Source of the DNA: Elusimicrobiales bacterium
Lineage (GTDB): Bacteria; Elusimicrobiota; Elusimicrobia; Elusimicrobiales; UBA9959
Reading direction: 5' to 3'
Length of the DNA stretch: 64,000 bases
Assembly: GCA_028688015.1 (NCBI GenBank)
Contig: JAQTZB010000011.1
Span: forward strand, 1-64,000
This document shows, piece after piece, positions 13,191-53,660 of this stretch. The first letter of the stretch is position 1. Each line of letters starts with the position of its first letter. Below the pieces are notes generated by a model. The model saw only the letters and a list, made by a program, of their open reading frames with translations, had not been told where the DNA came from and ran no database searches. Both the position numbers and the translations under genes were made by a program.

Positions 13191-13260
13191 AGGGGACGCT
13201 TGACTATGTGACTATTTCTGGGGAAGCCGACAATTAGGAATATAATCATCAGCGTCCCCT
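13191..13260. repeat. Palindromic repeat, copy A (AGGGGACG family)
   Basis: 70 bp. The outer ten bases, AGGGGACGCT, are perfectly inverted at both ends, and the interior diverges. It is the same family as the elements at 36234, 39726 and 44121. It lies 23 bp upstream of the glycosyltransferase-like gene. Confidence 0.85.
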
Positions 13261-34526: not shown

Positions 34527-35525
34527 CTAGAAGAAGTTTACCGCCAGCCAGTAGGAACCGGCGGAGATGGCGGCCGCGGCCGGGATCGTGATGATCCACG
34601 CCCAGACTATACTGCCGGCCACGCCCCACTTCACGGCCTTTATGTTCTTTATCATACCCACGCCGACTATGGAGCCGGTGATGGTATGCGTAGTGCTGAT
34701 CGGCACGCCCATCACGGACGCCCCGAACAGCATGATCGAGGCGCCGAACTCGGCGCAGAAGCCGTCCACCGGGCGCAGCTTGGAGAGCTTGTCGCCCATG
34801 GTCTTCACTATGCGCCAGCCGCCGGACATGGTGCCGATGGCGATGGCGGCCTGGCAGGACAGGACCACCCAGGTGGGCACGTGGAACTCACCGTGCAGGT
34901 AGCCGGCGCTGAACAGCAGGCCGGTTATGATGCCCATGGTCTTCTGCGCGTCGTTGCCTCCGTGCCCCAGGCTGTAGGCCGCGGCCGACAGCAGCTGCCC
35001 CTTGCGGAAGATATGGTCAACCTTTGCCGGGGTAGACTTGGCGAACAGGTTATAGACTATGACCGCCAGCGTCAGGCCCAGCAGCAGGCCCGCCACCGGG
35101 GAAATGATGATGAAAGCCAGCGTCTTCAGGATGCCGCTCATCACCAGCGCCGTGGGCCCGGCTTTAACCAGCGCCGAACCTATCAGCCCCCCCACAAGGG
35201 CGTGGGAGGAGCTCGACGGGATGCCGTAGTACCAGGTAATGAGGTTCCACGCCGAGGCGCCTATCAGCGCGCCGAAGATCACGTAGCTGTCAACCTGTCC
35301 AAGCTCCACGATGCCCTTGCCGATGGTCCCGGCCACGTGCAGGCCGAAGAACAGGAAGGCGATGAAGTTGAAGAAGGCCGCCCAGATGACCGCGTACTTT
35401 GGCGACAGCACGCGGGTGGCCACGATGGTGGCGATGGAGTTGGCGGCATCGTGGAAGCCATTCAGGAAGTCGAAGAACAGCGCCAGGCCTACCAGAAAGA
35501 CTATCCAGATCAGCATGCTATCCAT
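34527..35525 (-). CDS. pit: PiT family inorganic phosphate transporter
   Basis: 332 residues with about ten membrane segments. The PiT signature GFHDAANSIATIVATRVLSP is near residues 23-42, and its second copy is the HGGNDAQKTMGIIT segment near residue 186. PiT proteins import metal-phosphate with protons or sodium. The gene overlaps the DUF47 gene upstream by 8 bp, a common pairing in which the DUF47 protein modulates the transporter. Both are driven by a promoter with phosphate-type repeats at 36177-36230, so this low-affinity type transporter seems to be part of the starvation response here. Confidence 0.95.
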   Translation of the reverse strand: MDSMLIWIVFLVGLALFFDFLNGFHDAANSIATIVATRVLSPKYAVIWAAFFNFIAFLFFGLHVAGTIGKGIVELGQVDSYVIFGALIGASAWNLITWYYGIPSSSSHALVGGLIGSALVKAGPTALVMSGILKTLAFIIISPVAGLLLGLTLAVIVYNLFAKSTPAKVDHIFRKGQLLSAAAYSLGHGGNDAQKTMGIITGLLFSAGYLHGEFHVPTWVVLSCQAAIAIGTMSGGWRIVKTMGDKLSKLRPVDGFCAEFGASIMLFGASVMGVPISTTHTITGSIVGVGMIKNIKAVKWGVAGSIVWAWIITIPAAAAISAGSYWLAVNFF

Positions 35526-36144
35526 GTTTCACCATGATGGCCTCGATGACCTTGGCCACGTGCTCGCACTTGTCCAGCGTGCCTTCGGCCACCTCGTAGA
35601 TCTCCTTCCACTTGATGACCATGATAGGGTCCTTCTCGTTCTCGAAGAGTTGGCTGATGGCTTTTTCCCTGACGGCGTCGCCCAGGTTCTCCAGCCGGTT
35701 TATCTCTATGCAGTAGTCCAGCACGCGGCGCTGCCGCTTGGTGTCGGGCATGAATTTAACAGCGCTCGCCAGGGCGTCGGCGGCCTGGTCTATCAGGTCT
35801 ATGAACTGCGAGAAGTGCTCGTCGGCGGGGCTCAGCTTGTAGAGCTTGACGCGGCCGGCCATGGCGTTGAGCATGTCCAGCACGTCGTCGAGCTGGTTGG
35901 CCAGCGCGTAGATATCCTCGCGGTCTATCGGGGTGATGAAGGTCTTATTGAGCATGTCCGTGATCTCGTGGGCCAGCGTATCTCCCTCGTGCTCCAGGTC
36001 ATGGATCTTCTTCACTTCGGCTTCGTCCAGCACGCCGTCTTTAACGGCGCTTTTAAAGAACGCGGCGGCCTTCTTAAGGTTCTCGGCCTGCTGGCTGAGG
36101 AAGTCGAAGAACTTCTCTTCTTTCGGCATAAAATTTAATCCCAT
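35518..36144 (-). CDS. DUF47 PhoU-like accessory protein of the Pit transporter
   Basis: 208 residues from the ATG at 36144, which has AAAGGAG upstream; the open frame extends further but without conservation. The fold is all helical with two PhoU-like halves; HDLEHEGDTLAHEITDMLN and ENLGDAVREKAISQL carry the acidic metal-binding pattern of this family. In other bacteria the protein controls the neighbouring Pit transporter. First gene of the Pit operon. Confidence 0.93.
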   Translation of the reverse strand: MGLNFMPKEEKFFDFLSQQAENLKKAAAFFKSAVKDGVLDEAEVKKIHDLEHEGDTLAHEITDMLNKTFITPIDREDIYALANQLDDVLDMLNAMAGRVKLYKLSPADEHFSQFIDLIDQAADALASAVKFMPDTKRQRRVLDYCIEINRLENLGDAVREKAISQLFENEKDPIMVIKWKEIYEVAEGTLDKCEHVAKVIEAIMVKHG

Positions 36145-36176: not shown

Positions 36177-36230
36177 AGTGTAGGAAAAGCCGGTCAAGGC
36201 CGTTTAAAGCCCGTGTAAATTCCGTGTAAA
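36177..36230 (-). promoter_or_regulatory. Phosphate-regulon promoter of the DUF47-pit operon
   Basis: Read on the minus strand: TTTACAC, TTTACAC, TTTAAAC, TTGACCG, each starting 11 bp after the last. Nine bases after TTGACC comes the -10 TACACT (36182-36177). There is no separate -35; the last repeat takes its place, as in PhoB-activated promoters. The same 54-bp layout is found at 39667-39720 and 44061-44114. Confidence 0.85.
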
Positions 36231-36233
36231 GCC

Positions 36234-36313
36234 AGGGGACGTTCTTAACTATTGGATTATTTATCAACAATCCACATCTGGGCCAATTAGTCCAATAGTT
36301 GAGAACGTCCCCT
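36234..36313. repeat. Palindromic repeat, copy B (AGGGGACG family)
   Basis: 80 bp. The arms match in 19 of the first 20 bases (AGGGGACGTTCTTAACTATT against the complement of the far end), and the match continues weakly inward. One end touches the phoU stop codon; the other is 3 bp from the phosphate box. Both ends end in AGGGGACG. Confidence 0.9.
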
Positions 36314-36978
36314 CAGAGTTCTTCGGGGTGGTGGCGCACTACTACGGCGGAGACCATGTAGACTATGTCCTCGGCCATGCTGACGGCGTGGTCGCAGATC
36401 CGCTCCAGGTGGCGGGCTGTCAGCAGCAGCGGCACGGCCCGGTCGGCCGTGGCGGCGTCCTTCATCATATAGTCGTAGATCAGTTCTTTCTCCACCGCCC
36501 GCTTGAGCTCGTCGGCCTCGAAGTCAGCCAGGATAACCTGCTTGGCCAGCGCGGCGTCGCCGTTCAAAAAGGCCTGTATGGCCTGGCCGGTCATGCGCTT
36601 TGCGGCCTCGGCCAGGCGCGGGATGTCCACCAGCGGCTTGAGCTCCGGCTTGCCCGAGAGCTCCAGCGCGCGCTGGGCCACGTCCACGGCCAGGTCGCCT
36701 ATGCGCTCCAGCTCGGCGTTGAGTTTGATGGCGGTGGTAATGAAGCGCAGATCGCCAGCCATGGGCTGGTGCAGCGCTATCAGGTCTAGGCACTTGTCGT
36801 CGATGACCAGTTCCAGGCTGTCCATGCGCACGTCGGAATCTATCACCCGCTGGGCGGCGGCGCCGTCGCGCTTCTTGAGCGCCTCCACGGCCTCGGTGAT
36901 GGCCGACTGGGCCAGCCGGGCCATCTGCTCCAGCTCGCCCTTGAGCTGCCTCAGTTCCTCGTCGAAATGTCTGTGCAT
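36313..36978 (-). CDS. phoU: Phosphate signalling regulator PhoU
   Basis: 221 residues from the ATG at 36978, with GGGAGG upstream and a TGATG overlap with pstB. Two PhoU repeats with the metal-binding motifs ELERIGDLAVDVAQRA and HLERICDHAVSMAEDIVYM. PhoU links the PstSCAB transporter to the PhoR kinase so that the regulon is off when phosphate is plentiful. Last gene of the pstCAB-phoU operon. Its stop codon shares a base with the end of repeat copy B. Confidence 0.97.
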   Translation of the reverse strand: MHRHFDEELRQLKGELEQMARLAQSAITEAVEALKKRDGAAAQRVIDSDVRMDSLELVIDDKCLDLIALHQPMAGDLRFITTAIKLNAELERIGDLAVDVAQRALELSGKPELKPLVDIPRLAEAAKRMTGQAIQAFLNGDAALAKQVILADFEADELKRAVEKELIYDYMMKDAATADRAVPLLLTARHLERICDHAVSMAEDIVYMVSAVVVRHHPEEL

Positions 36979-37853
36979 CAGCCGAACCTCCCGGTGATAT
37001 AGTCCTCGGTGCGCCGGTCGCGCGGCGCCTTGAAAATATTGTCGGTGCGGCCTTCCTCTATCAGGTCGCCCATCAGGAAGAACGCCGTGCGGTCGGACAC
37101 GCGCGCGGCCTGCTGCATGTTGTGGGTCACAATGATTATGGTGTAGTCCTTCTTCAGCTGCAGGATGAGCTCCTCTATCTTGCCGGTAGAGATGGGGTCG
37201 AGGCTGGCGCAGGGCTCGTCGAAGAGTATCACCTCCGGCGAGACCGCGAGGCACCGGGCGATGCACAGCCGCTGCTGCTGGCCGCCGGAGAGGCCCAGGG
37301 CGCTGTCCTTCAGGCGGTCCTTGACCTCGCCCCACAGCGCGGCCTTCTTGAGCGAATCCACCACCCGTTCCTCTATCGCGCGCTTATCCGTCTCGCCGTT
37401 GACCTCCAGGCCGTAGGCCACGTTCTCGAAGATGGTCTTGGGAAAGGGGTTGGGCTTCTGGAACACCATGCCCACGCGCTTGCGCAGCTCGGCCGCGTCG
37501 CAGGCCGGGGACACTATGTCCAGGCCGTCGAGCAGGATCTCACCCTCCAGCCTGGTGCCGGGCACCAGCTCGTGCATGCGGTTCAAGAGGCGGATAAAGG
37601 TGGATTTGCCGCAGCCCGACGGGCCGATGATGGCCGTCACGCGGCGTTGGGCGAAGGAGATGTTGATATTGTTCAGCGCGCGTTTGGAACCGTAGTAAAA
37701 GTTCACGCCGCGGGCGGTTATCTTGGGCTCCAGGCCGAACAGGTCCGCCTCGCCCAGCGAGTTGGTGTTCAGCCCGACGGGGCTTTTCACCAGCGCGGGA
37801 TGAAAGTTCTCCATCCCCATCTGCTTGTCGTAGTCCACTATGGCGTCATGCAT
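36978..37853 (-). CDS. pstB: Phosphate ABC transporter ATP-binding protein PstB
   Basis: 291 residues. Walker [10 protein letters not shown] near residues 77-85, signature [16 protein letters not shown], Walker [14 protein letters not shown], and the H-loop [13 protein letters not shown]. The Q-loop region is [12 protein letters not shown], typical of PstB. An N-terminal extension of about 45 residues precedes the ABC domain. It overlaps pstA by 8 bp and phoU by one base. Confidence 0.98.
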
Positions 37854-38778
37854 GGTAGGTTTTCCTTTGGCGCTGGCGCAGCCAGATGGCCAGCATGGAT
37901 ACCGACAGCACCAGCCCGAGCAAGAGCAGGCTGGAGGCGTAGGCGATGCGGGTCTGCTCCTCGGGGTGCGTGCCCTCCGTCATCAGCGCGTAGATGTGGT
38001 AGGGCAGGGCCATCACCTCGGAGAACGGCGAGTTTGGGTAGCCCTTCACGTAGAAAGCGGCGGCGGTGAACAGGATGGGTGCGGTCTCGCCCGCTACGCG
38101 CCCGACGCTCAGGATAACGCCGGTGAGTATGCCGGGCAGGGCGGCGGGCAGCACCACCTTGCGGATGGTCTCCCACTGCGTGGCCCCCAGCGCCAGCGAA
38201 GCCTCGCGGATGGACTGCGGCACCGCCGTCAGCGCCTCCTGCGAGGCCGAGATGATGACCGGCAGGGCCAAAATGCCCAGCGTCAGCGCGCCTGAGATCA
38301 TGGACACGCCGAAGCCGAAATATTTCACGAAGACGGTGAGCCCGAACAGGCCGAACACCACCGACGGCACGCCGGCCAGGTTGTTGATGCTGACGCGCAG
38401 CAAATTGACTATCCAGCCCTTGGGCGAGTATTCCGTCAGGTAGACCGCGCAGGCCACGCCCAGCGGCAGCGCGAAGAGGATGGCCCCCAGCGTCAGGTAC
38501 AGGGTGCCCACTATGGCCGGCGCCACGCCGCCGGCGGTCATGGAGTCGCGCGGGACCTGCGTCAGGAATTCCCAGTTGATAGTGCCCAGCCCCTTGGCGG
38601 CTATGAAGAAGAGTATGCCCGCCAGGAACAGGATATTGGCGGCCATGCAGGCGGCGAGCGCGCCGAAGCCTATCTTCTGCGCCCAGCTCCGGCGGCTGCG
38701 GGCGGAGCGGCGGGCGGGCGCCGGCAGGCAGGCCGGGGCCGGGCCGGCCGCTATATTCATGAAGGCGTTGGTCATCAT
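37846..38778 (-). CDS. pstA: Phosphate ABC transporter permease PstA
   Basis: 310 residues with six membrane segments and the permease loop [46 protein letters not shown] is typical of PstA. The first 35 residues are a proline/arginine-rich cytoplasmic tail. It overlaps pstC by 4 bp and pstB by 8 bp. Confidence 0.96.
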
Positions 38779-39659
38779 CTGGCGAGCCCCAGCTTCAGGC
38801 GGTACCGGCGGCTGATGTATTCTGCCGCCACGTTGAAGACGAAGGTGATGAGGAAAAGGATCAGCGCTATGGCGAACAGCGCGTGGTAATGGTCGCTGCC
38901 CACCGGGGCCTCGCCCATCTCGGCGGCTATGGCCGCGGTCATGGGCCGCACCGGGTCGAAGATAGACTCGGGGATTATCGCCGAGCCGCCGGCCACCATC
39001 AGCACGGTCATGGTCTCGCCTATGACCCGGCTCATGCCCAGGATCACGGCGGTGGAGATGCCCGAGCCCGCCGCCGGGATTATGACTTTCGTCAGCGTCT
39101 GCCAGCGGTCGGCGCCCACGGCGTAGGAGGCCTCGCGGAAAGAGCGCGGCACGTAGCTCAGCGCGTCCTCGGCGATGCTGGCCACCGTGGGGGTGGCCAT
39201 CACGCCCAGTATGAGGCTTGTGGTGAAAGCGGTCAGGCCGATGGGCAGGTCCAGCGCCCGCTGCAGGAAGGGCGCCACCACCACCATGCCGAAGAAACCG
39301 TAGACTATTGAGGGAACCGAGGCCAGGATCTCTATTACGGGCTTGAGGAAGGCGCGCTGTTTAGCTCCCGCGAGCTCGTGCAGGTAGAGCGCGCTGCCCA
39401 CGCCCAGCGGCACGCAGATCACCAGCGCTCCGGCCGTCACCCACAGCGAGGCCGCTATCAGCGGCAATATGCCGAACTCGGGCGGCTCGGCCGTGGGATA
39501 CCAGCTGGTCCCCAGCAGGAAGGCCTTGGGCGAGACCACCTTGAAGATCGGGAGCGCTTCCTTGAACAGGACCAAGATTATCCCGACGAGGAAAGCCAGC
39601 GAGGCGAAGGCCGTCACCGTGAACAGCCACTTTATCAGCTTCTCTTTTCTCCGGTTCAT
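38775..39659 (-). CDS. pstC: Phosphate ABC transporter permease PstC
   Basis: 294 residues with six membrane segments and the permease loop EASYAVGADRWQTLTKVIIP. The segment GTSWYPTAEPPEFGILPLIAASLWVT is characteristic of PstC. First gene of pstCAB-phoU. GGGAG lies just before the ATG; the phosphate-type promoter ends 7 bp upstream of the start, so the leader is very short. Confidence 0.97.
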   Translation of the reverse strand: MNRRKEKLIKWLFTVTAFASLAFLVGIILVLFKEALPIFKVVSPKAFLLGTSWYPTAEPPEFGILPLIAASLWVTAGALVICVPLGVGSALYLHELAGAKQRAFLKPVIEILASVPSIVYGFFGMVVVAPFLQRALDLPIGLTAFTTSLILGVMATPTVASIAEDALSYVPRSFREASYAVGADRWQTLTKVIIPAAGSGISTAVILGMSRVIGETMTVLMVAGGSAIIPESIFDPVRPMTAAIAAEMGEAPVGSDHYHALFAIALILFLITFVFNVAAEYISRRYRLKLGLAR

Positions 39660-39666
39660 CTCCCAT

Positions 39667-39720
39667 AGTTTAAAAAACTATGGTCAAACCCGCGTGAAGC
39701 CCGCGTAAATTCCCTGTAAA
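39667..39720 (-). promoter_or_regulatory. Phosphate-regulon promoter of pstCAB-phoU
   Basis: On the minus strand: TTTACAG, TTTACGC, TTCACGC, TTGACCA at 11-bp steps, then nine bases, then -10 TAAACT (39672-39667). A 9-bp perfect inverted repeat (39663-39671 with 39675-39683) covers the -10 and the last repeat. Confidence 0.85.
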
Positions 39721-39725
39721 TACCG

Positions 39726-39800
39726 AGGGGACGCTGAGTCCTAATTCCCAACAATCTCAAGCCCTCTGTTACAATTAGGAATTAGGAATCAACGTCCCCT
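39726..39800. repeat. Palindromic repeat, copy C (AGGGGACG family)
   Basis: 75 bp. Arms match in 18 of the first 20 bases (AGGGGACGCTGAGTCCTAAT against the complement of the other end). It begins 6 bp from the pst promoter repeats. Confidence 0.9.
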
Positions 39801-39856
39801 ACCCACCTGCCACTTCTGAGTGGCGGACACGCTTGCGCCCGGTATCACTACAAGTT

Positions 39857-41092
39857 CTATTTAATGCCGGCGCCCGCAAGGTCGTCCCAGCGGGTATCCT
39901 CCGCGAAGGACAACGCGCGGAACTCTTTCTTGAATTTCTTGGCAGGCAGGTAGGCGCTCAAGCCGTATTCCTTCTCTTTGTCGGCAGCATGGTTGTATAG
40001 TACCGTCTCATTGCTGAGGATGTCGAAAGCCTCTCCGGCGGCGCCCCGCACCGCGGTGTCGGCGGAGGTTCCCAGGGCCTTCAGGAAATGCCCCAAGTCG
40101 CCCTGGAAAGAATAATCCGCGTCGGGCCGGAAAGCGGCGTCACGAGCGGCCCTGTAGTCGGCCAGCCTGCCGGCCAGCAGGCGCGCCGCCAAGGTGTCCA
40201 GGCGCGAGGCCAGTTTCCCCAGCGCCGCCGTCCGCACGGCGGACAGCGTGAAGACGGGCTGGGCGATGCCGGAGTCGCGTCCCCCGGGGAAGATCATGAA
40301 CTCGGCGGCCTCCTCGGCCGTCATCTCCGGCTGTTCCCGGACGCGCTTCAGCGAAAATTTATACATCACGCCGTTGGCCTGGATGGTGTCCTGCGAGCCG
40401 ACCACCACCGCGGCGTGTTTCCGGATCTCGTACAGGGCGGAAAGGTCCTGCATAAGGCACGAATCCATGAACAGCAGGTCCACGGGGCCGGCGGTCTCGA
40501 AGACCTTGCGCAGTTCCACCGAGGTCACGTGATTACCGCTCTCGTCGTCGTAGAGCATCCCCTTGGTCAGGGGCTTATCCATGGACATCCAGCTGGAGCC
40601 ATGGCCGAATACGATCAGCATGTACTTCTTGGCCGGATAATTCATCTTCGCCCATTTAACGAAGTCCGCCAGGTGACGCCAGTCGCCCATGTCGGCCGTT
40701 CCTAGTTCCTGCACGGGTCTGGAAGAGAAGCCGTACTCCATGCCGTCGGCTGTCAGATAATAGCGCCGCGAACCGGACCATTGCTGGCCGTCATTGGTGG
40801 AGCCTTTGGTCTTGCCCAGTTCGGCTACGATATTGACCCGGTCGGAGGACCCGACGTCCTCCATGTCGGACAGTTTTGTGATCGCATGGTGCTCAAGGTT
40901 GTTGTTCCCGTTCAGGAAAGCCATTATGGTCCACTCTTTGAGCGGAGCCGCTGGCGCAGGGATGATGAGTTGCGACGCCTTTATATCTCCGGCGGTAACG
41001 CCGGAAAGGGTGAATTCGGATGCGAACGCTCTGGAAGACGTCAGCGCGAACAGGAGCGCGGCTGCCACCGCGGCTTTCTTTGACATTGACAT
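39857..41092 (-). CDS. Exported clostripain-like (C11) cysteine protease
   Basis: 411 residues with a signal peptide (residues 1-24, ending AFA). The peptidase C11 dyad is visible: H164 in VFGHGSSW and C212 in LLFMDSCLMQ. Other family features are MAFLNGNNNLEHHAITKLSDMEDVG near the start of the domain and VVGSQDTIQANG. C11 proteases are clan CD enzymes that cut after basic residues and often mature themselves. It lies between pstC and the porin/pstS pair but has its own promoter region and no phosphate-type repeats. Confidence 0.9.
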   Translation of the reverse strand: MSMSKKAAVAAALLFALTSSRAFASEFTLSGVTAGDIKASQLIIPAPAAPLKEWTIMAFLNGNNNLEHHAITKLSDMEDVGSSDRVNIVAELGKTKGSTNDGQQWSGSRRYYLTADGMEYGFSSRPVQELGTADMGDWRHLADFVKWAKMNYPAKKYMLIVFGHGSSWMSMDKPLTKGMLYDDESGNHVTSVELRKVFETAGPVDLLFMDSCLMQDLSALYEIRKHAAVVVGSQDTIQANGVMYKFSLKRVREQPEMTAEEAAEFMIFPGGRDSGIAQPVFTLSAVRTAALGKLASRLDTLAARLLAGRLADYRAARDAAFRPDADYSFQGDLGHFLKALGTSADTAVRGAAGEAFDILSNETVLYNHAADKEKEYGLSAYLPAKKFKKEFRALSFAEDTRWDDLAGAGIK

Positions 41093-41335
41093 GATATATT
41101 GTACGTTCCGGGCGGTTTAGAGGGGAGGGCCCAAAAGCCTGAGATTGGCGGTTTTTAGACCCAGAAGCGACTGGGCCAAACAGTCCAGGCCCAAGTATAA
41201 TGCAGGCCCGCCGCGGCCCTATTTTAAGAGAATGGGACAATAGGTCTCTCGGGCAAAAGCGATAGGCCGAATTACATGCGAGACAGGGCCATATGCCCCA
41301 AGATGCTGCGACCTGGCGGATGCTAGAATATCAGT

Positions 41336-41761
41336 ATGAAAAAAACGATAACTTTCGCGGCGGTTTTTCTCGGTCTCGTCGGAATGGCTTCAGCTTCCGG
41401 GTATAATTATGAAAGCTCCAGGATGGACAGCGGCAAGTTGTTCTTCGAAATGCAGACCGGCAAGCGCATGGGTTCAGGGTCACCTGTTGCGATGAAAGGC
41501 GATTTCTCACCTGTAGAGAAGGCCAAGATCAACGCCATGCCCCACGATTATGGCAAACTGACCCACAAGGCGCCCCCGCTTTTGAATTCCGTAGGTACAG
41601 TTAAAAGCGCCTCAGGCAACCATGGCAAAAAAACCGGCCTGATAGTCGGAGGTGTGGTAGTGGTCGGCGCGGTGGTCGCCACCGCGCTGATAGCTCCGGA
41701 GTTCGCCATCCTGGCGGCCGGAGGCGCGGTTATTGTCATGGTAGGACTCATGGCAAATTAG
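41336..41761 (+). CDS. Small exported/membrane protein of unknown function
   Basis: 141 residues with a signal peptide (residues 1-20, ending ASA) and a C-terminal glycine/alanine/valine-rich hydrophobic stretch (about 100-140) that could form one hairpin in a membrane. The middle part is charged (GDFSPVEKAKINAMPHDYGKL). No family recognised. A TAGAAT lies 6 bp before the ATG with no ribosome site, so it may be leaderless. A terminator follows. The 243-bp gap upstream to the C11 gene shows nothing else recognisable. Confidence 0.72.
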   Translation: MKKTITFAAVFLGLVGMASASGYNYESSRMDSGKLFFEMQTGKRMGSGSPVAMKGDFSPVEKAKINAMPHDYGKLTHKAPPLLNSVGTVKSASGNHGKKTGLIVGGVVVVGAVVATALIAPEFAILAAGGAVIVMVGLMAN

Positions 41762-41795
41762 GATGGGAATGGCCCCTGTAGATAGGGGCACTGCG

Positions 41796-41828
41796 GAACC
41801 GCCGGGTTTCCCCGGCGGTTCTTTTTTT
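41796..41828 (+). terminator. Intrinsic terminator after the small gene at 41336
   Basis: Stem GAACCGCCGGG (41796-41806) with CCCGGCGGTTC (41811-41821), then seven T. Confidence 0.95.
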
Positions 41829-41951
41829 GCCGGCACTGCACTATCGGTGGCTGCTATCTTGTTTTGAGCTCTTTTTGGATACAACATTCTTAGGTTAGCG
41901 TTATCCAGCAATCGCACCGCACTGCGGTCCATCGCTTTTGCGGGACAGCGG

Positions 41952-42752
41952 CTATTTCAGGGGGACGAAGCCCTCTTCGGAAACTATCTTCTGGCCTTCG
42001 GGGCCCTTCAGGAAATCTATGAACTTCTTGACGGTGCCCTGCGGGACGCCGACCGTGTACATGAACAGCGGGCGCGAGATGGCGTACTTATTGCGCAGCA
42101 CCGAGCCGCGGTCGGGCATCACGCCGTCCACGGCTATGGCCTTCACCGCATCGGTCACGTAGCCAAGGCCCACATAGCCGATGGCGCCCGGCGTGCGGGC
42201 CACTATGGAGGCGATGCCCTGGTTGGAGGCCTGCATGATGGCGTCCGGGCGCACCTTCTTCTTGTTGAGCACCAGTTCGCTGAAGGCCTCGAAGGTGCCG
42301 CTGGCGCTGTCGCGGGAGATCACCACTATCTTCAGGTCGGGGCCGCCTATCTCCTTCCAGTTCTTCACGCGGGAGGTGTAGATCAGCTTGATCTGCTCGC
42401 GGGTAAGGCCGGTCGTGGTGTTGGACGGGTGCACGATGTGCGAAATGCCGTCCATGGCTATGATATGTGCCTTCAGGTCGCGGCCTTTCTTGGAGGCCTT
42501 CTCCAGTTCGGAGGGCTTTACGGCCCGGGAGGCGTCGGCGATGTCGCAGGTGCCGTCTATGATGGAGGCTATGCCCACCCCCGAGCCGCCGCCGCGCACC
42601 ACGATTTCCTCGTCGGGGTTGTTCTTCATGAACACCTCGGCGGCCTTCTGCGCTATGGGCAGCACCGTGGTGGAGCCTTCCATCACTATCTTGCCGGCGG
42701 TGGCCGGTACGGCCAGGCCGAGCGCCGCTATGGCTATTATCAGTTTTTTCAT
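41952..42752 (-). CDS. pstS: Phosphate-binding protein PstS
   Basis: 266 residues with a signal peptide (MKKLIIAIAALGLAVPATA). It has the PBP-like phosphate motifs: GSTTVLPIAQKAAEVFMK, GGGSGVGI, the SRAVKPSE loop, SRDSASGTFEAF and GAIGYVGLGYV. It delivers phosphate to PstCAB. It lies 21 bp after the porin gene with no promoter between, so the two share the phosphate-type promoter at 44061-44114. Confidence 0.96.
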   Translation of the reverse strand: MKKLIIAIAALGLAVPATAGKIVMEGSTTVLPIAQKAAEVFMKNNPDEEIVVRGGGSGVGIASIIDGTCDIADASRAVKPSELEKASKKGRDLKAHIIAMDGISHIVHPSNTTTGLTREQIKLIYTSRVKNWKEIGGPDLKIVVISRDSASGTFEAFSELVLNKKKVRPDAIMQASNQGIASIVARTPGAIGYVGLGYVTDAVKAIAVDGVMPDRGSVLRNKYAISRPLFMYTVGVPQGTVKKFIDFLKGPEGQKIVSEEGFVPLK

Positions 42753-42773
42753 TTTTATTCTCCTGTATCTAAT

Positions 42774-44054
42774 TTAAAACTTCAGGTTCACGTCCGCCTG
42801 GAACAGCTTTTCCTGCTTGAGGCTGCCGGCTGCCGCCTGCGTCTGGTAATAATCCAGGTCCACCGCGAAGTCGCGCAGCAGGCCCAGGGTCAGCACGGCC
42901 TCGTGCCCCTTCACATTTGTCGAGCCGCCGTAAAAGTCGGAGTCCGGGTAACTGTCCAGCCAGGCGTCGGCCTCCAGGCGGCGGTAGCTGTAGCGCAGCT
43001 GCCACTCCCCTGCGTCCGACACCTTGCGCTGGCCTAGCCTGAAGCCCGCCAGCCAGCCCTCGGACGCCCTGCCGTGGTCGAGCGATTTTATATAGTTGCC
43101 GAACGCGCCGGCGTAGGTTAGGTTATAGCCCAGCAGCGACGTCACCAGCGGCAGGCTGACCGGGTCCAGGATATTGGCATTAAACTCCAGTTCAGGGCTG
43201 AACGCGTCGTAGTTGTACTTGTATTCGCTGCGGACCAGGGTATTGGCCTTCTGGTAGCCGTCCGTAGTGGACGGCCTGTGGGCCAGCTCGGAGGAGTTGT
43301 CCAGGTGATTGAAGGCGTAGAGCGCGGCCCCGGCTTTGAAGTCATAAACGCCGTCGTCGTCGCGCCAGCTGACTCCGGGCTGGACGAAGGTCATGTAGGG
43401 ATCCTTGGGGTCGGAGGCTGACTCGGCCAGCACCATGAGGCCGGCGTTGGCGAAGCCCTGCCAGTTGTAGCTTACGGGCAGGTTCACCCTGGCGCTCAGG
43501 CCTTCCATGTTGATATCGCTGTCCCACAGCATGTCGCTGGTCAGCCACAGCGGGTTTTTGGTGCGGCCGGCCGTGAAGGCCAGGTTGTCGTTGGCGTTAT
43601 ACTCGGCGAAGACATAGTCTATCCATAGGCTCTTCTTGCCGTAATTGTCGCCGAAGGTCTGGTTGGTGGAGCGCGGGTCGGCGCTGGAGCCGCTGGCGAA
43701 GCCGAAACCGGTGTAGACCTTCTCGTTTATTTTGGCGTCCACGAAGAACCTCAGCCGGAAGCGGCCGCGGTGCTGGGTCAGAGCCTTGTTGTGGTTGTCG
43801 TTGAACTGGTAGCGCAGGCGCACGTCGCCGCGCAGCTTCATGGTCTGCAGCCACATGGGCAGCGTGGCGTGGCGCTGCTGGGAGATCTCCTTCTTCACCT
43901 CTTCCTGGGTTCCGACGCGGATCTCCTGTGCCTCGCCGGGATCTATAATGTTCTTCTCCACAAGCCGGTCGAGCAGCAGATCGAGTTCGCCGGCGCGAGC
44001 GGGCAGGGCCGCCGAGAGAAACAGAACCGCGAGCATGAGTTGGATGAATTTCAT
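42774..44054 (-). CDS. Outer-membrane porin co-expressed with PstS, probable phosphate porin
   Basis: 426 residues with a signal peptide (residues 1-21, ending ARA) and a short N-terminal helical part (LLLDRLVEKNIIDPGEAQEI, residues 25-44) as in putative porins with a coiled or periplasmic start. The barrel follows, ending in a C-terminal Phe (ADVNLKF). The promoter carries phosphate-type repeats, and pstS follows in the same operon. That context suggests a phosphate or organophosphate entry channel, as with OprP/OprO in Pseudomonas, but the sequence itself does not show that specificity. Confidence 0.88.
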   Translation of the reverse strand: MKFIQLMLAVLFLSAALPARAGELDLLLDRLVEKNIIDPGEAQEIRVGTQEEVKKEISQQRHATLPMWLQTMKLRGDVRLRYQFNDNHNKALTQHRGRFRLRFFVDAKINEKVYTGFGFASGSSADPRSTNQTFGDNYGKKSLWIDYVFAEYNANDNLAFTAGRTKNPLWLTSDMLWDSDINMEGLSARVNLPVSYNWQGFANAGLMVLAESASDPKDPYMTFVQPGVSWRDDDGVYDFKAGAALYAFNHLDNSSELAHRPSTTDGYQKANTLVRSEYKYNYDAFSPELEFNANILDPVSLPLVTSLLGYNLTYAGAFGNYIKSLDHGRASEGWLAGFRLGQRKVSDAGEWQLRYSYRRLEADAWLDSYPDSDFYGGSTNVKGHEAVLTLGLLRDFAVDLDYYQTQAAAGSLKQEKLFQADVNLKF

Positions 44055-44060
44055 GCCTAT

Positions 44061-44114
44061 AGTTTAGGAAAGCCGCGTCAAAGCGGCTTAAAGCCGCGGT
44101 AAAATGCGGGTAAA
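44061..44114 (-). promoter_or_regulatory. Phosphate-regulon promoter of the porin-pstS operon
   Basis: On the minus strand: TTTACCC, TTTACCG, TTTAAGC, TTGACGC at 11-bp steps, then nine bases, then -10 TAAACT (44066-44061). It has the same 54-bp layout as the pit and pst promoters. Confidence 0.85.
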
Positions 44115-44120
44115 ATAGAG

Positions 44121-44204
44121 AGGGGACGTTGATTCCTAAGTTCTATTTTTTAGTATCAGTTTCCAGAGTGTCCTGGATTTAGGAATCAGGAATCAACGTC
44201 CCCT
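44121..44204. repeat. Palindromic repeat, copy D (AGGGGACG family)
   Basis: 84 bp. The first 17 bases, AGGGGACGTTGATTCCT, are perfectly inverted at the other end. It begins 7 bp from the porin promoter repeats. Confidence 0.92.
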
Positions 44205-50748: not shown

Positions 50749-52125
50749 CTATTCAGGCAGGGTGAACCAGAAGAGGGAACCCAGGGCCTCGGAGCTCTCG
50801 GCGCCGACGGAGCCGCCGTGCAGTTCAACGAGGTGTTTGACTATCGAAAGCCCCAGGCCGGTGCCGCCCTGCTCGCGCGAGCGGGCCTTGTCGGCGCGAT
50901 AGAAGCGCTCGAAAATATGCGGCAGGTGCTCCGCCGGGATGCCGGGGCCGTTATTCTCCACCGAGACCTTCACGGCGCCGGGCTCCTCTACTGCGGAGAT
51001 CTTTATCCAGCCGCCCTCGCGGCCGTACTTGGCGGCGTTATCCAGCAGGTTTATCAGCACCTGCGCCAGCTTGTCGCGGTCCGCGTTCACGGCCAGGCCG
51101 GCCGGCACCAGGTTAGCCAGGGAAATGCGCTTTTTAGCCCGCGGCCCTTCAAGACCGGCCGCCACCTGACCGACCAGGGACATAAGTTCCACGGCGGTCT
51201 TGTCGGCGCGGGCCTTGCCGGATTCGGCGTAGGAGATCCTCAACAGGTCGTCCACCAGGTTCTCCAGGCGCACCGACTGCTCGTAGATGCTGCGCGCGAA
51301 GCCGGGGCCATGCTCCCTGTCCTCCAGCGCGCCGGAGAGCAGGGTCTCGGCGCAGCCTTTGATGGCGGTGAGCGGGGTCTTCAGCTCGTGAGAGACGTTG
51401 GCCACAAAATCCTTGCGCAGGGTTTCCAGCTTGCGCGGGCCGGTGATGTCCCGCGCCACCAGCACGCAGCCGCGCACGGCGCCGCTCTCCAGGATGGGCG
51501 CGGCGCTGACGGCCAGGAGCGTGCCGGGGGCCGGCTCGAACTCGAAAGCCACCGGGCCGCCGCTGGAAAGGGCCTTGATGGCCGCAGAAGAAAGCTCGTC
51601 GCCGCCGGGCATACCGGACAGGCGCATCCCTTCCGGCTCGAAGCCTTTTACCTCCATCAGCTGGCGCGCGCGGGGGTTCATGCGGGTTATCACGCCGCCG
51701 CCGTCGGTAACGAAGATGGCTTCGGACATGTCGCGGAAGGCGGCCTCCAGTTCCAGGCGACGCAGCTCCGCGTCGCGCACCTTGGCGCCCAGCTCCCCGG
51801 CCATGAAATTGAGGGTTTCGGAAAGCTTGCGCAGCTCGCCGGAAGAGCCCACGGGGATGCGGTAATCGAACTCTCCCGCGGCGAAGCGCTTGGAGCCGGA
51901 GATTATCTCACCGAACTGCCGGGCCAGCACCTGCGCCGCCAGCCAGCCCGCGCCCAGGGAAAACAGGAGCGAGAGGGCCAGGATCTGCCCCGCGTGGGCG
52001 CGCAGGGCGGCCAGGGGCAGGGTCCCCGAACGGTCCAGCAGCAGCGCGGCCGCGGCCAGGGCTAACAGCGCCACCAGCGCGTAGGAGAGCAGGATGCGGA
52101 GCCTGAGGGTTGGAAGAAAATTCAT
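50749..52125 (-). CDS. phoR: Phosphate-regulon sensor kinase PhoR
   Basis: 458 residues. Two membrane segments (about 10-30 and 45-68) with almost no periplasmic loop, a HAMP-like stretch, and a PAS domain (about 120-215, FRDMSEAIFVTDGGGVITRMNP). The HisKA box is VANVSHELKTPLTAIKG; the ATPase part has NLLDNAAKYG, ENNGPGIP and GTGLGLSIV. The short outer loop is typical of PhoR, which reads phosphate through PstSCAB and PhoU. It overlaps phoB as ATGA. Linkage to pst genes in the same window supports the name. Confidence 0.93.
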   Translation of the reverse strand: MNFLPTLRLRILLSYALVALLALAAAALLLDRSGTLPLAALRAHAGQILALSLLFSLGAGWLAAQVLARQFGEIISGSKRFAAGEFDYRIPVGSSGELRKLSETLNFMAGELGAKVRDAELRRLELEAAFRDMSEAIFVTDGGGVITRMNPRARQLMEVKGFEPEGMRLSGMPGGDELSSAAIKALSSGGPVAFEFEPAPGTLLAVSAAPILESGAVRGCVLVARDITGPRKLETLRKDFVANVSHELKTPLTAIKGCAETLLSGALEDREHGPGFARSIYEQSVRLENLVDDLLRISYAESGKARADKTAVELMSLVGQVAAGLEGPRAKKRISLANLVPAGLAVNADRDKLAQVLINLLDNAAKYGREGGWIKISAVEEPGAVKVSVENNGPGIPAEHLPHIFERFYRADKARSREQGGTGLGLSIVKHLVELHGGSVGAESSEALGSLFWFTLPE

Positions 52126-52820
52126 TCTGCTTCGAAGCGGTAGCCGTAATTCTTGACGGTGACTATGCGGCGGCCTTCCTTGCCCAGCTTCTTGCGCAGC
52201 GTGCCTATATGCACGTCCACCGTGCGGGTTTCAACCTCGAGGGAGGAGTCCACGCCCCAGGCCTTCTCCAGCAGTTCCTCGCGGGTCAGCACGCGGTCGC
52301 CGCAGGCCATAAGGGCCTTGAGCAGCTCGAATTCCTTGGAGGTGAGCTCCAGCGGGGCGCCCTTCAGGCGCACTTCCACCTTGGCGGCGTCCAGCTCCAG
52401 CGTCCCGGCCTTGAGCCGCGCCGGGCCGGGCGCGGCGGCGGCTTTGACCGAAGCGCGGCGCAGCACGGCCTGCACCCTGGCCAGCAGCTCCTTAAGGCCG
52501 AAGGGCTTGGTCACGTAGTCGTCGGCGCCGAGGCCGAGGCCCAGCACCTTGTCGGATTCTTCGCCTTTGGCGGTCAGCATTATGATGGGGATGGCGGCGG
52601 TTTTGGCGTCCGCCTTAAGCCTGCGGCAGACTTCCAGGCCGTCGAGGCCGGGCAGCATCAGGTCCAGCAGGATCAGCGCCGGTTTTTCCTTGGCGGCCGT
52701 CAGTGCCGCGTAGGAACCGTCGTGCACGAGGACGGCCCGGTAGCCCTCTTTCTTGAGGTTGTATTCTATCATGCGGGCTATGTCCCGCTCATCTTCTACT
52801 ATCAGGATCTTCTCGTTCAT
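52122..52820 (-). CDS. phoB: Phosphate-regulon response regulator PhoB (OmpR/PhoB family)
   Basis: 232 residues from the ATG at 52820. Receiver: VEDERDIARM, LILLDLMLPG with the phospho-acceptor, MLTAKG, and TKPFGLKEL. Winged-helix DNA-binding domain: LTSKEFELLKALMACGDRVLTREELLEKAWG and TVDVHIGTLRKKLG. It is the expected activator of the 11-bp repeat promoters at 36177, 39667 and 44061. Its own promoter carries at least two such repeats, so it probably raises its own expression. Confidence 0.95.
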   Translation of the reverse strand: MNEKILIVEDERDIARMIEYNLKKEGYRAVLVHDGSYAALTAAKEKPALILLDLMLPGLDGLEVCRRLKADAKTAAIPIIMLTAKGEESDKVLGLGLGADDYVTKPFGLKELLARVQAVLRRASVKAAAAPGPARLKAGTLELDAAKVEVRLKGAPLELTSKEFELLKALMACGDRVLTREELLEKAWGVDSSLEVETRTVDVHIGTLRKKLGKEGRRIVTVKNYGYRFEAE

Positions 52821-52910: not shown

Positions 52911-53660
52911 ATGACCACAAGGCGGGCGCTGACTTTGAACTTCTGGAACCGGGTTTACGAGAACGCGCGGCGGCGGCGCCTGTTCAGGGACGGCGACGCC
53001 ATCCTCCTGGCCGTGTCGGGCGGGCCCGATTCCGTGGTCATGCTGGATTTTTTCGCGGGGCAGGCCCGGAAGCACAGGCTGAAGCTCCGGGTCTGCCACA
53101 TCAACCATAAATTGCGCGGCCGGCTGGCCGACGCTGACGCCGCCTTCGTGAAGAAGCTGGGCGCGGAATACGGGCTGGAAACCTCGATCCTCTCCGCCGA
53201 CGTCAGGAAGCTGGCGAAGGCGCACAACAAGAGCGTGGAGCACGCCGCGCGCGACGCCCGCTACCGACTGCTGTCCGGGACCGCCCTAAAGCACGGCTGC
53301 GCCCTGGTGGCCACCGCCCACCACGCCGACGACCACGCCGAGACCATGCTGCTCAACCTGCTGCGCGGCACCGAGCCGAAGGGGCTGCTGGGCATACCGG
53401 AGCGGCGCGAATTATGCAGGAAGGGCCGGCGCAAAGTGGAGCTGATCCGGCCGCTGCTGGCCGTTTCGCGGCGGGAGATAGAGGGATATCTCAAAGTCAA
53501 CGCTTTAAAGTCCAGGAAGGACCACACCAACGAAGACGAGCACTACACCCGCAACTGGATACGCGCCACGCTGCTGCCGCTGATGCTCAAGCGCCAGCCC
53601 CGCCTGCGCGAGCACCTGGCCGAGCTGGCCGCCAAGCTGGCGCCCTACCTCAAAAAATAA
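52911..53660 (+). CDS. tilS: tRNA(Ile)-lysidine synthase, short form
   Basis: 249 residues. The PP-loop ATP site SGGPDS is at residues 36-41, followed by HINHKLRG, SVEHAARDARYRLL and the ATAHHADDHAETMLLNLLRGT signature. It converts the wobble C of tRNA-Ile(CAU) to lysidine. The protein ends after the second helical part and lacks the C-terminal TilS_C domain found in longer forms, like some other bacterial TilS proteins. TATAAT lies six bases before the ATG and no ribosome site is seen, so the mRNA may be leaderless. Its stop codon directly touches the stop of the convergent gene. Confidence 0.93.
   Translation: MTTRRALTLNFWNRVYENARRRRLFRDGDAILLAVSGGPDSVVMLDFFAGQARKHRLKLRVCHINHKLRGRLADADAAFVKKLGAEYGLETSILSADVRKLAKAHNKSVEHAARDARYRLLSGTALKHGCALVATAHHADDHAETMLLNLLRGTEPKGLLGIPERRELCRKGRRKVELIRPLLAVSRREIEGYLKVNALKSRKDHTNEDEHYTRNWIRATLLPLMLKRQPRLREHLAELAAKLAPYLKK

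Follow-up and report, generated by a model that had tools for sequence, protein, structure and literature searches.

Three sets of phosphate genes in an Elusimicrobiales bacterium share a Pho-box promoter layout that PhoB probably reads

What reads an arrangement of short repeats that recurs, with the same length and the same spacing, in front of three separate sets of phosphate genes? The question is raised by a 64,000-nucleotide (nt) stretch of DNA from an Elusimicrobiales bacterium (contig JAQTZB010000011.1 of assembly GCA_028688015.1, positions 1 to 64,000; hereafter the window), in which blocks of 54 base pairs (bp) stand on the minus strand before DUF47-pit, pstCAB-phoU and porin-pstS. 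The original prediction, made from the letters alone, was that an activator of the PhoB/PhoP family binds these blocks in tandem. We use pattern and matrix searches of the host genome, its relatives and more distant pst loci to study the interplay between repeats, downstream genes and candidate regulator, and we consider it highly probable that each block is a PhoB-activated promoter. The blocks, with their letters given 5' to 3', are as follows.

36177 to 36230, minus strand: probable Pho-box promoter of DUF47-pit; hexamers at 36225-36230, 36214-36219, 36203-36208 (weak) and 36192-36197 (TTGACC), 9-bp spacer, -10 TACACT at 36177-36182; letters from 36230 to 36177, TTTACACGGAA TTTACACGGGC TTTAAACGGCC TTGACC GGCTTTTCC TACACT
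39667 to 39720, minus strand: probable Pho-box promoter of pstCAB-phoU; four repeats, 9-bp spacer, -10 TAAACT at 39667-39672, pstC ATG 7 nt past the -10; letters from 39720 to 39667, TTTACAGGGAA TTTACGCGGGC TTCACGCGGGT TTGACC ATAGTTTTT TAAACT
44061 to 44114, minus strand: probable Pho-box promoter of porin-pstS; four repeats, 9-bp spacer, -10 TAAACT at 44061-44066, porin ATG 6 nt past the -10; letters from 44114 to 44061, TTTACCCGCAT TTTACCGCGGC TTTAAGCCGCT TTGACG CGGCTTTCC TAAACT

Within each block the repeats follow one another with a period of 11 bp in a constant order: TTTAC twice, then a third copy that is weak and reads TTTAA, TTCAC and TTTAA, respectively, and finally TTGAC. The distance from the end of the fourth hexamer to the -10 (TACACT or TAAACT, together TAMACT) is 9 bp in all three. 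Reading the minus strand thus returns the coordinates, the 11-bp step and the exact 9-bp spacing that the original prediction had given, as well as its claim that phase and length are fixed while the intervening bases vary: outside the fixed letters, the three blocks do not share the same bases. Its count of four repeats followed by TTGAC has to be amended, as there are four copies in all, of which the third is weak and TTGAC is the fourth. The half-site of the blocks is TTTAC(A/C), and the E. coli consensus CTGTCAT is not matched.

How specific is this layout? A search of the 3.34-Mb genome with the full pattern, allowing up to 3 mismatches, finds 3 matches, which are the three blocks themselves, and the reversed pattern finds 0; the four repeats without the -10, allowing up to 2 mismatches, return the same 3 (reversed, 0). 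All matches in the genome stand at phosphate genes, so that the refuting outcome named in the original prediction, matches unconnected with phosphate genes, did not occur. Because both search patterns were derived from the three sites themselves, we take as the independent test a matrix trained on 74 sites of relatives, with the host genome excluded from training. The blocks score 80.9, 74.0 and 56.6 with this matrix, shifted frames overlapping them reach at most 7.4, and the best unrelated score is -15.1 in the window and between -15.5 and -22.5 in each of ten 20-kb stretches of other contigs (200 kb). The gap between the blocks and the best unrelated score is more than 70 bits.

The same layout is conserved in relatives. 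We scanned 61 genomes, comprising the host, 31 more of its genus, 5 more of its family and 24 of another family of the order, and the full pattern gives 78 matches in 34 of them (reversed control, 1). The other family contributes a single match with 3 mismatches (in genome G059), likely a chance match, which is left out of later counts, leaving 77 sites in 33 of 37 family genomes. Sorted by the gene that follows (by tblastn), 24 precede DUF47-pit, 20 the porin (in 19 genomes) and 18 pstC; a block stands before pstC in all 18 searched genus genomes that have a pstC of at least 79% identity, the host included. Among the remaining 15 sites, four precede polyphosphate kinase (ppk; G017:C56, G020:C327, G026:C84 and G027:C39, one of them Pfam-confirmed and the other three recognised by eye from translations), one, with a poor -10, lies about 220 bp upstream of phoB (G011), two are found upstream of DUF47 or pstS matches at a distance of 0.75-1.2 kb, and eight are unlinked. 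Host and relatives taken together, 69 of the 77 sites precede or adjoin phosphate genes. No ppk site is found in the host genome by the full-pattern scan at up to 3 mismatches. Some positions that the pattern does not impose are conserved too, namely A at -51 (73 of 77), C at -39 (61) and T at -17 (63). The nearest named PstC relatives among the matches listed come from Elusimicrobia metagenome genomes: GWB2_63_16 (97% identity), Elusimicrobiales R2F_R2FSRR_metabat.29 (95%) and GWB2_63_22 (94%).

Now we consider loci further away. From the best 80 named loci by PstC similarity we set aside 8 that match genomes of the genus and also left out L122-L124 (Elusimicrobia, 79-81% identity), which may belong to it; the remaining 69 loci (708,670 bases, PstC identity at most 77%) have titles naming Omnitrophota, Endomicrobiales, Aminicenantes, Deltaproteobacteria and others. 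Searching for four repeats with at most 1 mismatch in 14 letters, we find 67 coding-strand matches in 50 loci at period 11, against 0 in the reversed control and 0-3 coding-strand matches at periods 7-10 and 12-16; the 67 blocks are all distinct, although some loci are closely related to each other, which makes the counts in part dependent on one another. In 50 of the 67, TAnnnT follows the fourth hexamer at exactly 9 bp, compared with 17 at 11 bp and at most 8 at any other distance. With L122-L124 included, there are 71 matches in 53 of 72 loci, and TAnnnT is at 9 bp in 54 of the 71. The third copy is again the deviant one: its fifth base, which the search does not impose, is C in 6 of 67 matches, as opposed to 48 of 67 in the fourth copy.

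These features are those of a Pho-box promoter, with 11-nt tandem repeats, a box replacing the -35 at a fixed distance from the -10, and phosphate-acquisition genes downstream. A PHO box consists of two 11-nt direct repeats whose consensus varies between species, and B. subtilis shares similar repeat features (PMC4415409, in excerpts); this variation is why CTGTCAT defines the E. coli form and not the wider Pho-box family. In E. coli the box substitutes for the -35, and of 33 Sinorhizobium genes for which a box is predicted, 16 carry it 22-25 nt ahead of the transcription start (excerpts of PMC3616915), beside which the fourth hexamer in the window stands at about -27 to -22. These two sources agree with the original prediction that PhoB/PhoP family regulators use 11-bp direct repeats. 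An excerpt of PMC1906773, which takes a longer repeat unit than we do, puts 10 bp between the tandem repeats of E. coli and the -10, and structural models favour strict spacing (PMC10294691, in part). A similar half-site is that of the cyanobacterial SphR boxes, tandem copies of CTTAACCT with 3-bp linkers and thus an 11-bp period, close to the C-TTnACC found here and described as at least three copies where the blocks have four (PMC1906773, same excerpt).

E. coli pstS and phoA resemble the window in having 11-bp direct repeats beside the -10, and pstS, read directly, likewise carries four repeats, the third of which deviates (CTTACA). The half-site differs (CTGTCA in E. coli, TTnACM here), as does the distance from the last hexamer to the -10, which is 11 bp in pstS and phoA, two promoters whose -10 was placed by eye, compared with 9 in the window. 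The Bacillus subtilis PhoP boxes, which are TTAACA-like and lie at about -60 to -20, are similar in half-site type and position. Our literature search found no paper on PhoP spacing in B. subtilis.

The genes themselves were identified from Pfam and NCBIfam profile matches, which bear out the names pit/DUF47, pstCAB-phoU and porin/pstS in the original prediction. It had also placed phoBR in the window, where phoB-like and phoR-like genes are indeed found at 50749-52817, both below the NCBIfam cut-offs.

34527 to 35525, minus strand: pit, PHO4 family phosphate transporter (Pfam)
35518 to 36144, minus strand: DUF47 / PhoU_div gene; 32 nt from -10 to ATG, AAAGGAG in the leader
36313 to 36978, minus strand: phoU; start set by eye at the ATG overlapping the pstB end, longer open reading frame (ORF) to 37335
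36978 to 37853, minus strand: pstB (TIGR00972, above cut-off)
37846 to 38778, minus strand: pstA (TIGR00974, above cut-off)
38775 to 39659, minus strand: pstC (TIGR02138, above cut-off)
41952 to 42752, minus strand: pstS (TIGR02136, above cut-off)
42774 to 44054, minus strand: porin (Porin_5, Pfam)
50749 to 52125, minus strand: phoR/pnpS-like histidine kinase; HAMP, PAS, HisKA and HATPase domains, NCBIfam PnpS 328.9 and PhoR 261.8 bits, both below cut-off
52122 to 52817, minus strand: phoB-like response regulator; best NCBIfam match PhoB, 246.5 bits, cut-off 296.2

In the window a clostripain-family (C11) peptidase gene (39857-41092) separates pstS from pstC, with a palindrome between it and the pstC box; in some relatives (e.g. 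G026), unlike the window, pstC directly follows pstS.

Which protein would read the blocks? The model of PhoB (TIGR02154) is the best of the 102 NCBIfam families that match the candidate regulator, which we call PhoB-like because the cut-off of that model is not reached. Matches of more than 240 bits, above a gap that reaches down to 194, are its close orthologues; 30 of 37 family genomes have one, as do 0 of 24 genomes of the other family. Across the 61 genomes, 29 have both sites and a close PhoB, 26 have neither, 5 have only sites and 1 has only PhoB, which is agreement in 55 of 61 (p about 4e-11); 23 of the 26 genomes with neither come from one family, and the association rests largely on that family. 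Aligned with E. coli PhoB, the window protein is identical at 100 of 225 positions. The window protein and 25 relatives (extracted from 29 fetched) read H(I/V)GTLR in the recognition helix and TVK(N/S)YGYRF further on, where E. coli has HIRRLR and TVRGTGYRF. R201 and R219 of E. coli PhoB contact bases, and an altered half-site would for that reason fit the changed residues.

Several observations weigh against a PhoB-activated promoter at each block. At eight of the 77 family sites no phosphate gene is recognised; a calcineurin-like phosphoesterase follows one of them and a metallo-beta-lactamase-fold protein another. Among the distant loci, 19 of 69 have no match, 17 of 67 matches lack TAnnnT at 9 bp, and 5 matches lie on the opposite strand. 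The regulator scores 246.5 bits where 296.2 are called for, its recognition helix in the window is HIGTLR and not the HIRRLR of E. coli, and its co-occurrence with the sites within the host family is weak when that family is taken alone (p = 0.016). Sites occur without a close PhoB in G001, G007, G029, G032 and G059 (the last being the likely chance match), and G004 has PhoB and no site. Three of the site-only genomes are 79-83% complete and G029 is 97% complete; the boxes in G001, G007, G029 and G032 may be served by another regulator, or the contigs with phoB may be missing.

The alternative that survives best is that another OmpR-family regulator reads the repeats and the PhoB-like gene is a mere neighbour. 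The genome has 14 Trans_reg_C matches (the C-terminal domain of OmpR-family regulators), any such reader would be compatible with the missed equivalog cut-off of PhoB, and the four family genomes that carry sites without a close PhoB fit it as well. Against it stand the rank of PhoB as the best of all matching models, the location of phoB no more than 16 kb from any of the three sites, the box upstream of phoB itself in G011, and the joint absence of sites and close PhoB from 23 of 24 genomes of the other family, and we consider it unlikely.

Less probable still is that the shared layout reflects a recent duplication of one promoter cassette, aided by adjoining palindromes. The window does contain palindromes resembling repetitive extragenic palindromes, of the form GGGGACG...CGTCCCC and about 68-84 bp long, at 36234-36313, 39726-39800 and 44121-44204, each 4-7 bp upstream of one of the three Pho boxes, and also at 13192-13259. 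A palindrome arm at 4-7 bp is found at 8 of the 77 family boxes, where about 0.02 would be expected from the density in 200 kb of the host genome, or 0.16 if palindromes were ten times denser between genes. A box without a -10 in one relative (G013, L194, at G013:C27:8332-8385) lies between two palindromes, which would also suit such a duplication. Yet the bases between the fixed letters differ from block to block, the same layout is found in other phyla, and a palindrome arm at 4-7 bp is missing from 69 of the 77 family sites, so that we give a duplication only a very small chance. That last count also leads us to reject the palindrome as a required part of the Pho promoter.

To judge from its position, the G013 box comes right after pstS, at a place that the pstC promoter occupies in some other species, and the pstC operon of that genome is on another contig with its own box; the -10-less box looks like a promoter remnant after rearrangement. 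Some of the palindromes are shared by descent, and differing palindrome types stand at the same place in different species. The arm search gives 35 matches (control, 0). Spaced searches for GGGGACG and CGTCCCC give 3 matches per strand at N{25,55} (reversed control, 10), a range that misses the three Pho-box palindromes because their loops are longer, and 10 per strand at N{50,80} (reversed control, 13); since the reversed controls exceed the patterns, we treat the matched sequences and the arm search as evidence and not these counts. In the 1.5-kb flanks of the genome's single Y1_Tnp gene neither GGGGACG nor CGTCCCC is found, and no link to a REP-associated transposase emerges from that search.

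That the blocks are constitutive sigma-70 promoters, with TTGAC as the -35 box and the repeats arisen by chance, has a negligible probability: TTGACC does resemble a -35 hexamer, but it lies only 9 bp from the -10, where a sigma-70 -35 box needs about 17 bp, and the series of 11-bp repeats, found nowhere else in the genome, turns up again close to pst genes of other phyla, so that spacing and conservation refute it.

We therefore return to the PhoB-activated promoter. Tandem binding by this activator, as the original prediction had it, draws support from conservation in genus and family, from the phosphate genes that accompany the sites, and from their co-occurrence with PhoB, and we infer that the window PhoB binds the blocks and activates them by doing so, with phosphate as the signal. 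In the proposed mechanism, phosphate starvation would lead the PhoR-like kinase to phosphorylate the PhoB-like regulator, which is encoded 8-16 kb from the blocks; two PhoB dimers would then bind head to tail on the four 11-bp half-sites, at about -60 to -22, replacing the -35, and bound PhoB would hold sigma on the -10 exactly 9 bp past the last half-site.

Quantitative inspection of the start codons raises a further question, namely where the messages begin. In the window the -10 ends 6 nt before the start codon of the porin and 7 nt before that of pstC, which puts the -10 about 12 bp upstream of the start codon, as in leaderless genes of the TAnnnT type. Transcription usually starts seven bases after the -10, and if this start point is assumed the porin mRNA would begin at its ATG and the pstC mRNA one base before, so that the former would be leaderless and the latter leaderless or with a 1-nt leader. 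Across the family sites, the porin ATG is exactly 6 nt past the -10 in 17 of 20, and pstC has an in-frame start 6-7 nt past the -10 in 11 of 18 (9 ATG, 2 GTG). For DUF47 the ATG is 28-39 nt past the -10 in 23 of 24 sites and 67 nt in one, with a Shine-Dalgarno-like sequence in all 24, and the DUF47-pit mRNA would accordingly keep a leader with a Shine-Dalgarno sequence. On the other side of the account, 3 of the 20 porin sites have no ATG at 6 nt, 2 of the 18 pstC sites have no start codon of any kind at 6-7 nt, in 5 more the ATG at 6-7 nt opens only an out-of-frame mini-ORF, and four DUF47 genes have an in-frame start codon nearer to the -10. The mini-ORFs (in G003, G011, G020, G027 and G030) have 6-11 codons and overlap the pstC start by 4 or 8 nt, which suggests translational coupling.

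Is this arrangement special to the phosphate genes? Among 206 genes called by a simple codon-usage script in the window and ten 20-kb stretches, 15 have TAnAMT at 6 nt from a candidate start codon, on its upstream side, and 4 have it at 7 nt, compared with a mean of 1.8 at other spacings, and a Shine-Dalgarno-like sequence is present in 64. Given this peak, leaderless starts look common in the host genome and not special to phosphate genes. The gene at 52911 beside phoB (tilS-like by eye) is also among the leaderless candidates in the window. Beyond the genus the picture differs: of the 54 sites where TAnnnT stands at 9 bp, only two show an ATG, 4-6 nt past the -10, that opens at least 80 codons, four more have a GTG or TTG at 4 nt that does so, and five (L127, L138, L140, L147 and L151) have an ATG at 6 nt that opens only 24-37 codons. 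With so few such starts, we reject the leaderless layout as a rule outside the genus.

In Actinobacteria and Deinococcus-Thermus, leaderless genes likewise carry TAnnnT some 12 bp ahead of their start codon (PMC3160421, in part), and the promoters studied here would differ from those in being activator-dependent as well. Elusimicrobiota are not among the groups named in excerpts of that paper, and the string 'elusimicrob' is absent from its main text; another paper, in the portion available, groups Elusimicrobiota by their anti-Shine-Dalgarno sequence. Leaderless PhoB promoters are not described in the excerpts of the Sinorhizobium PhoB study (PMC3616915). A limited open-access search, by titles and abstract openings, found no description of phosphate regulation in Elusimicrobiota, nor did limited open-access searching find one of an activator-controlled Pho promoter or of leaderless translation in this phylum, and the matches listed in broader open-access literature searches contain no mention of 'Elusimicrobi'.

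Putting the parts together, we arrive at a joint reading that we hold tentatively, at slightly less than even confidence: a PhoB core extends across Elusimicrobiota, Omnitrophota and other phyla, the third half-site over the -35 is kept deviant, the -10 is locked at 9 bp, and in the genus transcription begins at the start codon itself, whereby PhoB would directly drive leaderless mRNAs, with a leaderless mini-ORF taking that place in 5 of 18 pstC promoters.

As far as sequence can carry it, what is well supported is a Pho-box promoter of textbook form, found in a phylum that has been little studied. Its new details are modest: the spacer of 9 bp, a third copy that deviates, and starts that look leaderless. 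For this phylum, which is also uncultured, it would supply a ready phosphate regulon together with a highly specific search matrix, and it indicates that Pho-box geometry has been kept to the base across long evolutionary distances. If the leaderless reading is true, an activator-controlled promoter and leaderless translation would be joined here in one compact design.

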